DNA from: Bacteroidia bacterium
Lineage (GTDB): Bacteria > Bacteroidota > Ignavibacteria > UBA10030
Length of the DNA: 64,000 nt
Assembly: GCA_022180565.1 (NCBI GenBank)
Contig: BQML01000010.1
Span: forward strand, 1 to 64,000
Direction of reading: 5' to 3'
In this document: positions 1 through 4,071 of the stretch, one piece after another
How positions within the stretch are numbered: the first letter of the stretch is position 1
How the letters are laid out: every line of letters begins with the position of its first letter
Notes under the pieces: model-generated
The model's database searches: none
What the model saw: only the letters and a program-made list of their open reading frames with translations
What the model was told of the DNA's origin: nothing
Position numbers and translations under genes: made by a program

Positions 1-139
1 CGGACTTGTAGAGGGCGTTGGCCTCATTGAACATCTTCTTTGCTTCAATATCGTTCGGGTCAGGAGGGGCCGATTGAGCGGAGCCGATGGTGACGGCAAG
101 GAGTGTTCCTGCGAGAAGAGTGAAAAAGATTCGTTGCAT
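1..139 (-). CDS. secreted protein, N-terminal fragment (possibly TPR)
   Basis: This is the first 46 codons of a gene that runs off the left edge of the window. The predicted start MQRIFFTLLAGTLLAVTIG is a clear signal peptide: basic residue, hydrophobic core, then SAQSA as a likely signal peptidase I site. The mature part begins with an acidic/proline linker and DIEAKKMFNEANALYKS, which has the look of the first helix of a tetratricopeptide repeat, so an exported TPR protein is possible. A strong AAGGAGG ribosome binding site precedes the ATG. It lies just downstream of tRNA-Leu and may share its transcript. Function cannot be named from this fragment. Confidence 0.65.
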   Translation of the reverse strand, partial: MQRIFFTLLAGTLLAVTIGSAQSAPPDPNDIEAKKMFNEANALYKS

Positions 140-171
140 CCTCTGAATGCCTCCTTGATTGTTGGACCTTG

Positions 172-255
172 TGCCCGGAGCGAGACTTGAACTCGCATGC
201 CCTTTCGGGCGCCTCCCCCTCAAGACGGTGTGTCTGCCAGTTCCACCATCCGGGC
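172..255 (-). tRNA. tRNA-Leu (anticodon GAG)
   Basis: An 84-base class II tRNA. The acceptor arms GCCCGGA and TCCGGGC pair fully, the T arm reads GTTCAAGTC in context, and there is a long variable arm (GGCGCCCGAAAGGGC region) as expected for Leu. The anticodon loop reads TTGAGGG, giving GAG, which decodes CUC/CUU. The anticodon stem has one G-A mismatch and one G-U pair. The 3' CCA is not encoded (ACAA follows). It follows tRNA-Lys on the same strand. Confidence 0.93.
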
Positions 256-274
256 GAAACTCCCTTGACACAGC

Positions 275-302
275 TTCCTTCTTACTTCTTCCTTCTCACT
301 TC
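275..302. repeat. four degenerate heptads, TTMCTTC type
   Basis: On the plus strand four head-to-tail heptamers are read: TTCCTTC, TTACTTC, TTCCTTC and TCACTTC. They fill most of the spacer between the two tRNA genes and continue as a pyrimidine-rich tract to about 320. On the transcribed minus strand this is a purine-rich stretch. It looks like a short heptameric simple repeat; no function is evident. Confidence 0.6.
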
Positions 303-321
303 TCGAACTTTCTCTTCTTTC

Positions 322-396
322 TGGTGAGCGCGGATGGATTCGAACCATCGACCCTCTGCTTAAAAGGCAGATGCTCTACCCCTGAGCTACGCGCCC
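322..396 (-). tRNA. tRNA-Lys (anticodon TTT)
   Basis: Cloverleaf with acceptor arms GGGCGCG and CGCGCTC (one G-U pair), D arm GCTC/GAGC, anticodon stem TCTGC/GCAGA with loop CTTTTAA (anticodon TTT, reads AAA/AAG) and T arm GATGG/CCATC around TTCGAAT. Discriminator A is followed by an encoded CCA (322-324), unlike tRNA-Leu downstream. A promoter-like pair of boxes lies 32 bases upstream at 428-456. Confidence 0.95.
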
Positions 397-427
397 CCTG
401 TCGGCACGAAACGAACCGGCTTCTTCC

Positions 428-456
428 AATGTACGGCATAATCGCACGTTTTTCAA
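428..456 (-). promoter_or_regulatory. putative promoter of the tRNA-Lys/tRNA-Leu unit
   Basis: On the minus strand TTGAAA (451-456) is followed after 17 bases by TACATT (428-433). The tRNA-Lys 5' end is 31 bases further on, a normal distance for a tRNA leader. The TACATT/TATATT form of the -10 box recurs at several other sites in the window. Confidence 0.45.
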
Positions 457-472
457 TGGCCGAACGATTCGT

Positions 473-769
473 TCATCGCGCGCCGGCATCGGAGGCCATC
501 GGAACCTCTTCGTGAACGTCAACCTGGGATTGTTCCACTTTGTTCCGATACAGGATTCCGAATGGAACAAGGACGCAGTATCCGAGGAACAACAGAATCG
601 GTGCAACGACAAGGGGCAGAGTTCCATCCCACGGTTCCTGCGCAAGGGCAATATAGCCCAGAAGAATACAGAGAAGAGCAACCCCGATGATCTGGTAATT
701 CCGCCTTGTGAGGGGAAGCGCATGCTTGATCGGTTTCTTCTTTGATGTCGAGCGCTGTTCACGTGCCAT
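473..769 (-). CDS. small two-helix membrane protein, DUF3098-like
   Basis: A 98-residue protein with a basic N-terminus (about residues 1-23), two hydrophobic helices (about 28-45 and 50-72) joined by a short turn with EPWDG, and a charged C-terminal tail. The layout, the phrase RRNYQIIGVALLCILLGYIA and the second helix ending in a Leu/Val-rich LAPI-type segment recall the DUF3098 family of Bacteroidota/Chlorobi inner-membrane proteins, whose role is unknown. AAGGAG lies 8 bases before the ATG. A rho-independent terminator ends only about 20 bases upstream of the start, so its expression may depend on read-through (see 791-873). Confidence 0.75.
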   Translation of the reverse strand: MAREQRSTSKKKPIKHALPLTRRNYQIIGVALLCILLGYIALAQEPWDGTLPLVVAPILLFLGYCVLVPFGILYRNKVEQSQVDVHEEVPMASDAGAR

Positions 770-790
770 TTGCCCGCTCCTTCGACCGCT

Positions 791-824
791 TAATAAAAAG
801 CCCAGCGTTGGGGAAACGCCGGGC
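791..824 (-). terminator. rho-independent terminator
   Basis: On the minus strand, GCCCGGCGTT and AACGCTGGGC form a 10-base-pair stem (one G-U pair) around TCCCC, followed by TTTTTATT. It lies after lolD and before the 98-residue membrane protein gene, and is directly abutted by another short hairpin at 825-841. Confidence 0.85.
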
Positions 825-873
825 CCGACCGGTTGTGTCGGCAGTCAGGGGAGAACCTGTCGACTCGGTCGTA
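791..873 (-). ncRNA. candidate small RNA or attenuator leader (about 80 nt)
   Basis: Promoter-like boxes at 880-907 would start a transcript near 873 that ends at the terminator 791-824. In between there is no open reading frame. The RNA can form a hairpin CCGAC/GTCGG (825-841) stacked directly on the terminator stem. The early segment GACCG can instead pair with the CGGTC of that hairpin, so two alternative folds exist. It could be an independent small RNA, or a leader that controls read-through into the membrane protein gene at 769. The call rests on sequence layout only. Confidence 0.35.
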
Positions 874-879
874 TGGTGC

Positions 880-907
880 AATGTACGCGATTTGGCCTGA
901 AAGTCAA
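880..907 (-). promoter_or_regulatory. putative promoter upstream of the 791-873 leader
   Basis: Minus-strand TTGACT (902-907) and TACATT (880-885) are spaced by 16 bases, in the gap after lolD. It matches the TTG...TAYATT pattern found before tRNA-Lys, tRNA-Pro, relA and rrf2 in this window. Confidence 0.4.
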
Positions 908-932
908 GAAGAAATCCGGCGAATACCCGCCG

Positions 933-1631
933 TCAATGTCTTACCGGAACAAGCTTTCCGTCCACCAGCCGCAGGACCCTGTCACCTCTCTTTGTGAGAT
1001 CGGGATTGTGTGTGGCAAAAACAACCGTCAACCCTTTCTTTCTCGCCAGATCCACGAGCAATTTATGAAGCCGGGCCCCATTCTCTTCGTCAAGATTCCC
1101 CGAAGGCTCGTCTGCGAGAATAAGGGCCGGGTCATTGATCAGGGCCCTGGCAACCGCCACTCGTTGTTGTTCCCCCCCGGAAAGCTCCGACGGCTTATGA
1201 TCGGCCCGCTCCTCCAACCCGACCTCCTGCAGGAGCCGTTCGGCCCGGAACCGGACCTCCTTCAAAGACTCTCCTTTGATCAACGCGGGCATCGCGACAT
1301 TCTCAAGAGCGGAAAACTCCAACAGCAAGTGATGGAATTGAAAGATAAAACCGAGTCTCCGGTTTCTGAAGGCCGCGCGCTGTTCCTCTGAAAGGGTGAA
1401 GAGATTCTGTCCACCCACGGAGACCAATCCCCTCGTCGGCTTATCCAGGCCGCCGAGAATATGCAACAACGTGCTTTTCCCCGACCCGGAAGGTCCAATG
1501 ACCACAATAATTTCTCCCTGCCGGATCTCGAGTTCGGCACCCTTCAATACCTGAAGGGGGGTCGAACCCATGACGTATTCTTTCCACAATGTTTCTGCCC
1601 GCACGAAAACAGGTCGTTTCGTCACTCCCAT
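933..1631 (-). CDS. lolD: lipoprotein-releasing ABC transporter ATPase LolD
   Basis: A 232-residue ABC ATPase. It shows a Walker [10 protein letters not shown] (about 47-55), Q-loop, signature [15 protein letters not shown], Walker [14 protein letters not shown] and an H-loop ATHNPDL. The [10 protein letters not shown] form is typical of the MacB/LolD/FtsE subfamily. It follows two LolC/LolE-type permeases and overlaps the second by 10 bases, which supports LolD: it powers extraction of outer-membrane lipoproteins from the inner membrane and hand-over to the carrier LolA. The main alternative is a MacB/FtsE-like exporter ATPase, but the permease architecture argues against that. Confidence 0.88.
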
Positions 1632-2848
1632 CGGATGGCCTCAACAGGGATAAGGGTGGCAGCTCGTCGCGACGGATAGAACGCGGCAACGGAGCAGAGC
1701 AGAATCGCAGTCGCAGGCACAAGGATCACGTCTTCAACGTGGAGATCAACAGGAATCGCAGGAATGATGTACACCGTTGGATCAAGAGGAACAAGATGAA
1801 ACTCCTGCTGAAGGAATACCGTCACGATGCCGATCACGGTTCCGAACAGCGACCCGAGCACCCCCACCGACAGCCCTTGAATCATAAAGATCCTCTGGAT
1901 GGCGGATTTCGGCATCCCCATTGACTGAAGGATCCCGATGTCCCTCGTCTTTTCGATTACGGACATCGTTAAGGAACCGAGGAGGTTGAAGGAAGCGACA
2001 CCGATGATGAGGGAGAGAATGATGTACGCCATCCAACGCTCGATCTCCATCATTGAGTACAGTTCGCGGTGAAGGTCGTACCAGGTGAGGATGCGGAACT
2101 GCGGCGAGAAGGTCTCCCGGAGGCTCCCGGAAAGACGTTCCGTGTTATTCACGTCGCGCATGCGCACTTCGAGCCCGTGTACCGCCTCACCGATTTCAAA
2201 CAGTTCCTGCGCGGCGGTAAGAGAAATAAAACCATGGAGCCCGTCGTATTCTTTGTTTCGGGATTCATAGATTCCATTCACCACAAATCTCCGGATCATC
2301 GGCTGACCGATCTGCAGAAGCGCCGGCTCCGTTCCTGCCGGACTGACGATGGATATGGTATCTCCCACAAGAGCACCGAGCCGGTCAGCCAACGTCAGGC
2401 CCAGGACGATCCCATCCCTTCCCTTCCGGGACACGTCAAACGATCCAAGGACCATTGTATTTCGGATACCGGAAACCGCGTCGACGCTCTCCTGGTCGAC
2501 GCCTTTTAAGGTGATCACCCGATTCATGTTGCGGAACACGACAAGGGCCTTCCCGGAGATGAACGGCGCGAATCCCGACACCTCCGGATCGTTCTTCAGC
2601 GTTTGTATGAGCCCCGTGTATTCCTGCAAGGGCTGGGCTCTGGCTCCTTCGATCCTGATGTGCGGATCGAAGTTCAGCAGGATTGACGTGACGAGTCCGT
2701 TGAATCCGTTGAACACGGACAGGACAATGACGAGGGCCGCGACTCCGACGGTCACCCCTCCGATGGAAATAAGGGAAATCACGGTGACAAAGCCGAAGCG
2801 CCGCTTGGAACGAAGATACCGGAATGCTATGGCGCGGGCGAGATTCAT
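1622..2848 (-). CDS. lolC: LolC/LolE-type lipoprotein-releasing permease
   Basis: A 408-residue permease with the LolC/E layout: one helix after the N-terminal FRYLRSKRR segment (about 23-48), a large periplasmic domain (about 50-270) and three C-terminal helices (about 275-395) with the MacB/FtsX-fold core. The start chosen is ATG at 2848, whose ATGA overlaps the stop of the preceding permease; an upstream in-frame extension of 67 residues lies inside that gene and has no membrane-protein character. It is a tandem paralogue of its neighbour; the pair would form the LolC-LolE heterodimer with LolD. Which of the two is LolC and which LolE is not settled from sequence alone. Confidence 0.82.
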   Translation of the reverse strand: MNLARAIAFRYLRSKRRFGFVTVISLISIGGVTVGVAALVIVLSVFNGFNGLVTSILLNFDPHIRIEGARAQPLQEYTGLIQTLKNDPEVSGFAPFISGKALVVFRNMNRVITLKGVDQESVDAVSGIRNTMVLGSFDVSRKGRDGIVLGLTLADRLGALVGDTISIVSPAGTEPALLQIGQPMIRRFVVNGIYESRNKEYDGLHGFISLTAAQELFEIGEAVHGLEVRMRDVNNTERLSGSLRETFSPQFRILTWYDLHRELYSMMEIERWMAYIILSLIIGVASFNLLGSLTMSVIEKTRDIGILQSMGMPKSAIQRIFMIQGLSVGVLGSLFGTVIGIVTVFLQQEFHLVPLDPTVYIIPAIPVDLHVEDVILVPATAILLCSVAAFYPSRRAATLIPVEAIRWE

Positions 2849-4071
2849 GAGGTGGCAAATCTCAGCAGAGGCACAGGATCGCTCTTGCCCGCAAGCCGCG
2901 ACGGCGCGAGGGAACACAGGTAGCACAGAAGGAGGGCTGCGCCACTGACGACGGCAAAATCGGACCAATGGAGCTCGATCGGCACATGGGTCATGTAGTA
3001 AACTCCTGCCGGCAAGGAGATGAGTTTGGAGGTTTGCTCCACCCAGCAAAGGCCGTAGGCAAGAACATTGCCGAGGAAGGTTCCGATCACCCCGATGAAC
3101 ATTCCCTGCAGGAGAAACACCCGGTTGACCGTTCCGCGTGCCGCGCCGAGGGCCCTCAAGACCGCGATCTCTTTCGTTTTCTCCATGACCATCATCAGCA
3201 AGGCTCCAATGATGTTCACCATGGCAACCGCGATAATCAGGGCGAGGAGGATCGGAATCTGACTCTTTTGAAGATCAATCCAGGAAAAAAGGTTGCGGTA
3301 CTGCTGAAACATGGTCCGTCCATAGTGGGGATACCCCAGAACTTCGGGAATCTCCTGTGCGAGCGGCGTGATCCGGTCAGGATCCGCGACCAAAACATCG
3401 AATCCGCTTACCGCAGTGCCGTATTGGAAAAGGCGCTGTGCATTCCTGAGATCGACATAGACATAGCTGGCATCGTACTCTTCCATGCCGGTCTCATATA
3501 CACCCGCAACGCGAAACTTCATGATGCGGGTTTGCGAGAGCGTGAGGCTGTATCCGCCTAGCGCAAAAACAAGAACAGGGTCTCCTACGGTCACCCGCAG
3601 CCGCTCGGCCAGACGTTTGCCCAGAATGACCGGTTCCAAACCCTCCGACGTCCTGTCGAGCACCGCGCTCCCCTCGACGAGATAACGCTTGCCCGGGTAC
3701 ATCATCCCGTCCGGAACAATGCCCTTCAAGAGAATCCCGTCGATCCCGTGCTCAGAACGAATCATCGCCTCGCGCGAGACGTACGGCGAGATGGATCGGA
3801 TTTCCGGAAAGCGTTCCGTGATCTTTCGTATGGAGACATCGGGATTCAGCAGAGCCTGATTCTGGAACCCGTAGATCTGGAGGTGAGCCGTGAAGCCAAT
3901 GATGTTTTCCCTGATCGTATTCTCGAATCCGCGCAGAATGGAGAGGGTGATAATGAGGGCTGCAACGCCGACCGTGATTCCGACGATCGCAAAAAAAGTA
4001 ATGAAGGAAATGAATCCGCGGTTTCGCCTGGACCTCAGGAAGCGGCCGGCTATGAAGGTGGCAAGATTCAT
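2845..4071 (-). CDS. lolE: LolC/LolE-type lipoprotein-releasing permease
   Basis: A 408-residue membrane protein beginning MNLATFIAGRFLRSRRNRG, the same start block as its downstream paralogue. One N-terminal helix (about 22-48) with VGITVGVAALIITLSI, a periplasmic domain and three C-terminal helices. Expected role: periplasmic engagement of lipoproteins in the LolCDE complex. The ATG at 4071 is preferred to an in-frame TTG at 4080 because MNLA aligns with the start of the paralogue. It begins 12 bases after the prfB stop, with no good ribosome binding site, so it is probably translated by coupling to prfB. Confidence 0.8.
   Translation of the reverse strand: MNLATFIAGRFLRSRRNRGFISFITFFAIVGITVGVAALIITLSILRGFENTIRENIIGFTAHLQIYGFQNQALLNPDVSIRKITERFPEIRSISPYVSREAMIRSEHGIDGILLKGIVPDGMMYPGKRYLVEGSAVLDRTSEGLEPVILGKRLAERLRVTVGDPVLVFALGGYSLTLSQTRIMKFRVAGVYETGMEEYDASYVYVDLRNAQRLFQYGTAVSGFDVLVADPDRITPLAQEIPEVLGYPHYGRTMFQQYRNLFSWIDLQKSQIPILLALIIAVAMVNIIGALLMMVMEKTKEIAVLRALGAARGTVNRVFLLQGMFIGVIGTFLGNVLAYGLCWVEQTSKLISLPAGVYYMTHVPIELHWSDFAVVSGAALLLCYLCSLAPSRLAGKSDPVPLLRFATS

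Follow-up and report, generated by a model that had tools for sequence, protein, structure and literature searches.

We report a structured small RNA that is best read as a new RNA family outside the tested models of Rfam 15, one that would work in the manner of small RNAs (sRNAs) with C-rich loops and that has an unusual, probable read-through link to the gene of a membrane protein. On balance, we consider it likely that the locus is the gene of a trans-acting, Hfq-independent sRNA of this kind, whose promoter also feeds the DUF3098 gene by partial read-through. To judge from the sequences of relatives, in which the covariation is strong, the structured RNA is real, and conservation together with covariation rules out a chance origin. 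As far as seen, the RNA is a feature of the class Ignavibacteria, present also in other families beyond the order, and on this evidence the window presumably belongs to that class.

In the window, that is, the whole stretch of 64,000 nucleotides that was analysed, the RNA is encoded on the minus strand, with lolD, whose stop is near 933, on its upstream side and a DUF3098-like gene (769-473; Table 1) on its downstream side. The original prediction had described a promoter, an ORF-less stretch, a hairpin and a stacked terminator here; this observation is confirmed and proved larger than first described, as the parts are all present on the minus strand and are conserved in relatives. The promoter TTGACT-16-TACATT lies at 907-902 and 885-880, in a position conserved in 66 of 73 copies, the stretch behind it holds no ORF of the expected kind, and the strong terminator is a GC-rich hairpin (826-798) followed by TTTTT. 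We placed the 5' end of the RNA from the promoter, at about 871-873, and the 3' end at the T run. The P2 stem of the window copy has two mismatches (A-C and G-A). Over 83 nt the RNA folds at -35.5 kcal/mol versus -23.0 kcal/mol in shuffles (z -4.2; 0 of 200 shuffles as good), and the fold of a longer piece of 201 nt is unremarkable against shuffles (z -1.27). Scans of window positions 1-4000 found promoters (2 versus 1.7 expected) and terminators (5 versus 4.3 expected) at chance frequency. The window DUF3098 protein matches PF11297 with E 1.4e-4 and 21.7 bits, under the curated 25. Two tRNA genes (172-255 and 325-396) lie on the same strand downstream of the DUF3098 gene and might form part of read-through transcripts. 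The lolD stop codon is immediately followed by a small hairpin and a T-rich stretch (917-932), possibly lolD's own weak terminator.

Table 1. Features of the RNA locus in the window, with their conservation among copies of the RNA
Feature	Position	Strand	Remarks
-35 hexamer TTGACT	902..907	(-)	best-scoring -35 begins TTGA in 68/73 model-selected copies
-10 hexamer TACATT	880..885	(-)	sigma-70 score at least 9/12 in 66/73 copies versus 8/282 control pieces
Structured small RNA	791..873	(-)	R1 match 792-871, 82.2 bits
P1, 5' strand GACC	867..870	(-)	pairs with 827-830; both-side changes at all 4 pairs in some family members
P2, 5' strand	856..864	(-)	pairs with 837-845; both-side changes at all 9 pairs in some family members
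P2 apical loop TTCTCCCCTG	846..855	(-)	includes the highly conserved CTCCCC (853-848), found in 57/74 model-selected copies
P2, 3' strand	837..845	(-)	
P1, 3' strand GGTC	827..830	(-)	
Intrinsic terminator hairpin, GC-rich	798..826	(-)	C-rich loop TCCCC 814-810; T run 799-795
DUF3098-like small membrane protein gene	473..769	(-)	start codon 769-767; GGAG 780-777; hardly any space behind the terminator for a separate promoter

The consensus structure consists of P1 (four pairs) around the 9-bp P2 with its loop (U)UCUCCCCUG, with the terminator and its second C-rich loop directly after. In alignment A2, whose 86 distinct rows include one weak spurious row, both-side changes occur in 21 of the 22 pairs and 98.4% of cells pair; its 363 both-side cells compare with 82 (sd 16) in shuffles, and pairing falls to 28-45% when the partners are slid. 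The model-selected set gives both-side changes in 19 of 22 pairs, 98.1% of cells paired and 164 both-side cells versus 34. Both alignments were fitted to the covariance model R1 and hence lean towards the R1 structure. The structure-free alignment A1 shows the same picture with fewer changes: three of its pairs have both-side changes, a count equalled by 33 of 500 shuffles, and its 14 both-side cells were equalled by no shuffle of 500. The stems themselves range from GGCGACGGU/ACUGUCGUC to UCAAAGGG/CCCUUUGA and GUCUUUAGGU/ACCUAAGGAC, with an unchanged loop. Among the 74 model-selected copies, CCCC is present in the P2 loop region of 67, in the terminator loop region of 68 and in both regions of 65, and exact CTCCCC in 57; that of L227 was not counted, as this match is just 57 nt long and the motif may be the terminator loop.

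The two pairings proposed originally fared differently. The letters of the CCGAC/GTCGG hairpin are there, but its conservation is not: of 18 distinct sequences, 2 have a standard pair at its A-T position, and 72.2% of cells pair, versus 71.5% in shuffled sequences and 72.2% after a slide of one position. The GACCG close to the 5' end does pair with CGGTC before the terminator, in that GACC/GGTC is a conserved outer stem with zero mismatch and two gaps in 18 distinct sequences. Inside this stem lies the main hairpin (864-856 / 845-837), which the original prediction lacked; the alternative fold that these letters were thought to offer found no support. Pairing of an antiterminator with the terminator arm, evaluated in 90 of 94 rows against mononucleotide shuffles, gave a mean z of +0.70 and none below -2. 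An antiterminator switch is thus unsupported, and GACCG/CGGTC is a constant part of a single conserved structure.

A DNA search with a 221-base query matched the RNA stretch (E < 1e-4) in 25 of 61 genomes, namely the window's own, which is counted, and 60 relatives; three of the 25 match the terminator part only, and the flanks are mostly unaligned. Twenty of the 25 were aligned without structure (A1) and gave R1. Within the order, R1 then matched 64 of 98 genomes (53 of the 75 good genomes), with filters strict enough that weak copies may be missed; tallied by family, they occur in 24/32 genomes of f1, 2/3 of f4, 19/22 of f5, 19/21 of f6, 0/5 of f2 and 0/15 of f3. The matches in three genomes (G024, G008 and G002) are weak, and these copies have lost one C-rich loop or both. 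Of 395 genomes sampled evenly across the phylum, 45 match R1 at E <= 0.01; 41 of these, many with weak matches, are in the window's class and four outside it (G105, G174, G229 and G450). Three of these four loci (L230, L232 and L233) are without the CTCCCC loop, the promoter and DUF3098, and we treat them as chance terminators; G174 is the match whose locus was not among the three. Within the class, the match in G176 (L234) also resembles a chance hit. When a collection covering 84,980 species was scanned with a pattern, 69 stretches came up, titled as of Ignavibacteria type or loosely as Bacteroidetes/Chlorobi or "bacterium".

The model-selected set (A4) comprises 74 of the 79 R1 matches listed in the scan of the order. 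The five not included are G085:C74 (equated with L147, whose score and position are equal), G040:C15, G036:C45, G000:C29 and G097:C313. The loci found by pattern, in the species-collection and viral scans, contain CTCCCCTG by construction, and loop conservation is therefore quoted from the model-selected set. A 19-bit match (L129:2581) was excluded from the neighbour and promoter counts and included in the covariation counts of A2.

A promoter that agrees with the consensus at 9 or more of 12 bases stands before 66 of 73 model-selected and 70 of 72 pattern-selected copies, versus 8 of 282 control pieces further upstream, and the RNA start is mostly 5-6 nt past the -10 box (8 nt in the window copy). 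On the other side, DUF3098 lies downstream of 64 of the 74 model-selected copies. The distance from the RNA end to its start codon, taken as the first start of a frame of 75-130 aa with the typical motif, has a median of 26 nt (10th-90th percentile 14-67; 63 of 74 measured), and in the pattern-selected set one of 27 nt (17-44; 68 of 74 measured); gaps are typically 15-45 nt, and a few are as long as 155-284 nt. Because the usual gap is too short for a second promoter, DUF3098 is probably transcribed through the terminator, either from the RNA promoter or from further upstream. The dprA gene comes after DUF3098 in L095 (by Pfam) and, by look, also in L100, L122 and L080. Between DUF3098 and a DprA-like ORF, L080 and L136 have an ORF of 111 aa, which by eye we presume to resemble a protein of the EutN/CcmL type.

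Copies without DUF3098 behind them number 10 of the 74, one of them cut by the contig end, and the genomes of all ten also carry a linked copy (for G085, equated with L147 by score and position). CTCCCC is kept in six of these ten; the four without it are all in genome G007. This genome has five extra copies (L148-L152), one with CTCCCC and four without, of which three have CTTT in its place; in the copies that lack CTCCCC, the C-rich terminator loop is still present. CTCCCC is likewise kept, with both loops C-rich, in copies from outside the order (L062, two in L067, and L160), which have no DUF3098 within the 3-4 kb examined. Tandem arrays occur at L106 (three copies), L129 (three) and L067 (two), the first two found by the CTCCCCTG pattern. 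A phage-like contig, IMGVR_UViG_3300048050_000114, carries a pattern-found copy of 59 bits (L238:4352-4432). This copy and a Mu-type portal gene are convergent, a terminase gene is close by, and the 6.4 kb examined contain no DUF3098. Further phage copies were sought in two scans of viral contigs, which returned the same single contig, and in a phage collection, which returned none.

In other relatives it is the loops that are lost. The P2 loop is not C-rich and the terminator loop is C-rich in four f7 genomes (L228, L229, L231 and L235) and in L219, neither loop is C-rich in L167 and L218, and in all seven the terminator and DUF3098 persist. Two remote copies (L072:1501-1583 and L074:1501-1584) have a C-rich P2 loop and a terminator loop that is not C-rich; both start directly after a tRNA gene, which suggests that these RNAs are co-transcribed with the upstream tRNA. 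By eye, only promoter and terminator remain before DUF3098 in G005 (L166), and in G032 and G033 (L163 and L164) the RNA is absent and a promoter-like stretch stands directly before DUF3098.

The stems free in sequence, the fixed C-rich loops, the RNA's own promoter and terminator, and its extra, tandem and mobile copies together point to a trans-acting sRNA with the loops as its working part. An independent RNA of about 80 nt, one of the two readings offered originally, is strongly supported by the conserved promoter, structure and terminator and by the copies without the downstream gene. We propose that a sigma-70-type promoter would make such an RNA, whose fold, as covariation shows, is P1 enclosing P2 with its CUCCCC loop, stacked on a terminator with a C-rich loop. 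The C-rich loops would then pair with G-rich ribosome-binding sites and block translation in trans without Hfq, one loop being enough; this trans action is suggested by the conservation of the loops and by the 6C/B11, sX13 and cuckoo RNAs. The spacing further suggests that the same promoter may supply DUF3098 through partial read-through of the terminator, giving much sRNA and little mRNA. Hfq was found in none of 31 genomes, and the control was found in 5 of 14.

We searched for targets with a single long loop complement. Placed directly before ATG, the full complement matched 50 times in 61 genomes, compared with 13 for the reversed pattern; a control pattern of the same composition gave 35 (its own reverse 20), so that 50 is not clearly more. 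The two families that lack the RNA, 12 genomes in all, account for 12 of the 50. Nor did any target gene recur, as the nine ORFs of at least 40 aa at the 30 loci examined included no two alike. The target search is thus negative in effect, and targets of the RNA are putative.

It could instead be argued that the RNA is a cis-acting leader alone, its terminator being an attenuator for DUF3098, which in some families is apparently in an operon with dprA. Some factor would open the attenuator; a protein or G-rich RNA binding to the C-rich loops might play this part. We judge this unlikely, although several observations speak for it: DUF3098 follows 64 of the 74 copies, genomes with an unlinked copy also have a linked one, the usual gap leaves no promoter between RNA and gene, the order promoter-terminator-DUF3098 survives the loss of the loops (L167, L218) and, by eye, the reduction of the RNA (L166), and the RNA-less L163 and L164 show, again by eye, promoter-like sequence directly before DUF3098. 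However, no antiterminator complementarity is seen, unlinked copies and tandem arrays have intact loops, one copy is phage-borne, and the C-rich terminator loop is conserved though termination does not need one. Tandem arrays are hard to explain as a leader alone, because every copy ends in a terminator. Measured against what defines an attenuator or riboswitch leader, the locus has a terminator between promoter and gene and lacks the antiterminator pairing. The original suggestion of a leader that gates the downstream gene is therefore sustained in its anatomy, with the terminator between the sole evident promoter and the gene, and not in its switch by alternative fold.

The trans-acting reading does not account for everything either, since a purely trans role does not require DUF3098 behind 64 of 74 copies. 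That this link is kept despite the loss of C-rich loops makes it likely that promoter and terminator have a cis role in addition to the trans RNA. One might go further and see RNA and DUF3098 as a two-output module, a convergent cousin of CcsR-CcaF1, in which the terminator sets the ratio of sRNA to protein and the basic-tailed protein tethers or stabilises the sRNA or exerts feedback on it; this seems to us decidedly improbable, and the basic tail found on the DUF3098 protein of all four RNA-less relatives examined counts against it. The same observation led us to reject the tail as a trait linked to the RNA.

A further idea, that the RNA binds a protein or acts as a sponge, its C-rich loops titrating a protein or a G-rich RNA with no repression of mRNAs, would be in keeping with the two like loops, either of them dispensable, and with the complementarity search that gave no target. 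We regard it as very doubtful, for no candidate partner was seen, and the studied RNAs of like anatomy pair with mRNAs (PMC3771888, PMC10470900). Finally, that the terminator merely ends the lolD message, with promoter and hairpin arising by chance, is next to impossible. In its favour, lolD precedes the RNA in the same orientation in the window and in many relatives: of 97 copies with 600 nt or more of preceding sequence, some places being counted twice, 41 have a lolD-like gene there. Against it, the search showed no such gene before the remaining 56, the first preceding ORF of 90 aa or longer runs in the opposite direction at four loci (L100, L080, L136 and L135), the whole RNA covaries strongly, the promoter is conserved directly before it, and a separate hairpin follows lolD at 932-917.

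We suggest that a trans-acting sRNA whose promoter also feeds DUF3098 is what this locus encodes. If so, it would represent a family of regulatory RNAs that spans a class, in a lineage on which the literature searches listed no sRNA work and in which Hfq was not found in the 31 genomes searched. Searches for small RNAs in Ignavibacteria, in a collection without preprints and most subscription papers, showed nothing on such an RNA among the papers listed. A further lineage with a C-rich-loop sRNA of such shape would make convergence on the Shine-Dalgarno sequence testable, and the order sRNA-terminator-DUF3098 would neatly show how one promoter can serve two outputs split by a terminator.

Among known families, the Rfam scan of the whole window gave four tRNAs and no family at threshold for the RNA stretch. 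At E <= 10, cmscan of window positions 600-1000 returned ar14 (19.9 of the 58.8 bits needed), anti-hemB (17.6 of 49.5) and one other on the opposite strand. Across 14 loci, alpha-r14/cuckoo (RF02344, NfeR1) and anti-hemB (RF02837) matched repeatedly below threshold, at best with 35.0 of 58.8 bits (E 0.0065, L070) and 32.9 of 49.5 bits (E 6e-4, L129), respectively; as the closest models by score, one or the other may have a remote link to the RNA. The 6C RNA, whose accession we take to be RF01066, appears neither in the cmscan of window 600-1000 (E <= 10) nor in that of the 14 loci (E <= 1). B11 is presumably the 6C RNA, which would fit the citing of Mai et al. as the B11 reference, and it is reportedly chaperone-independent, going by the title of Mai et al. 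2019. The two C-run loops of B11 pair with G-rich 5' UTRs and either loop suffices (PMC10470900); 6C RNA is described as specific to Actinobacteria, with extra copies on chromosomes and plasmids (PMC9569102). Like 6C/B11, our RNA has two hairpins, each with a C run in its loop (CCCC in both, 65/74). Unlike 6C/B11, it belongs to a different phylum, its P1 encloses P2, and its gene is linked to that of DUF3098, a link that probably works by read-through. The Xanthomonas sX13 carries C-rich apical loops on stable stems, is Hfq-independent and acts on G-rich motifs near translation starts (PMC3771888); like B11, it represses the mRNAs that carry such motifs. The RNA shares the C-rich apical loops on stems, whereas sX13 has three stem-loops and an unstructured 5' region, and our RNA has two C-rich loops, no long unpaired 5' end and no Rfam match. 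The alpha-r14 RNAs carry conserved, mutually redundant anti-Shine-Dalgarno loops, and their stems vary freely in sequence (PMC10746234); fixed, redundant loops on free stems are what the RNA has in common with them; in contrast to their CCUCCUCCC motif and three hairpins, its loops read CUCCCC/UUCCCC and two are C-rich. Copies of the sRNA CcsR are co-transcribed with a small RNA-binding DUF1127 protein (PMC10253847); the RNA differs in the order of sRNA then protein with a terminator between, and in that DUF3098 is a membrane protein, not DUF1127. We read the likeness to 6C/B11, sX13, cuckoo and CcsR as one of similar working and not of membership.
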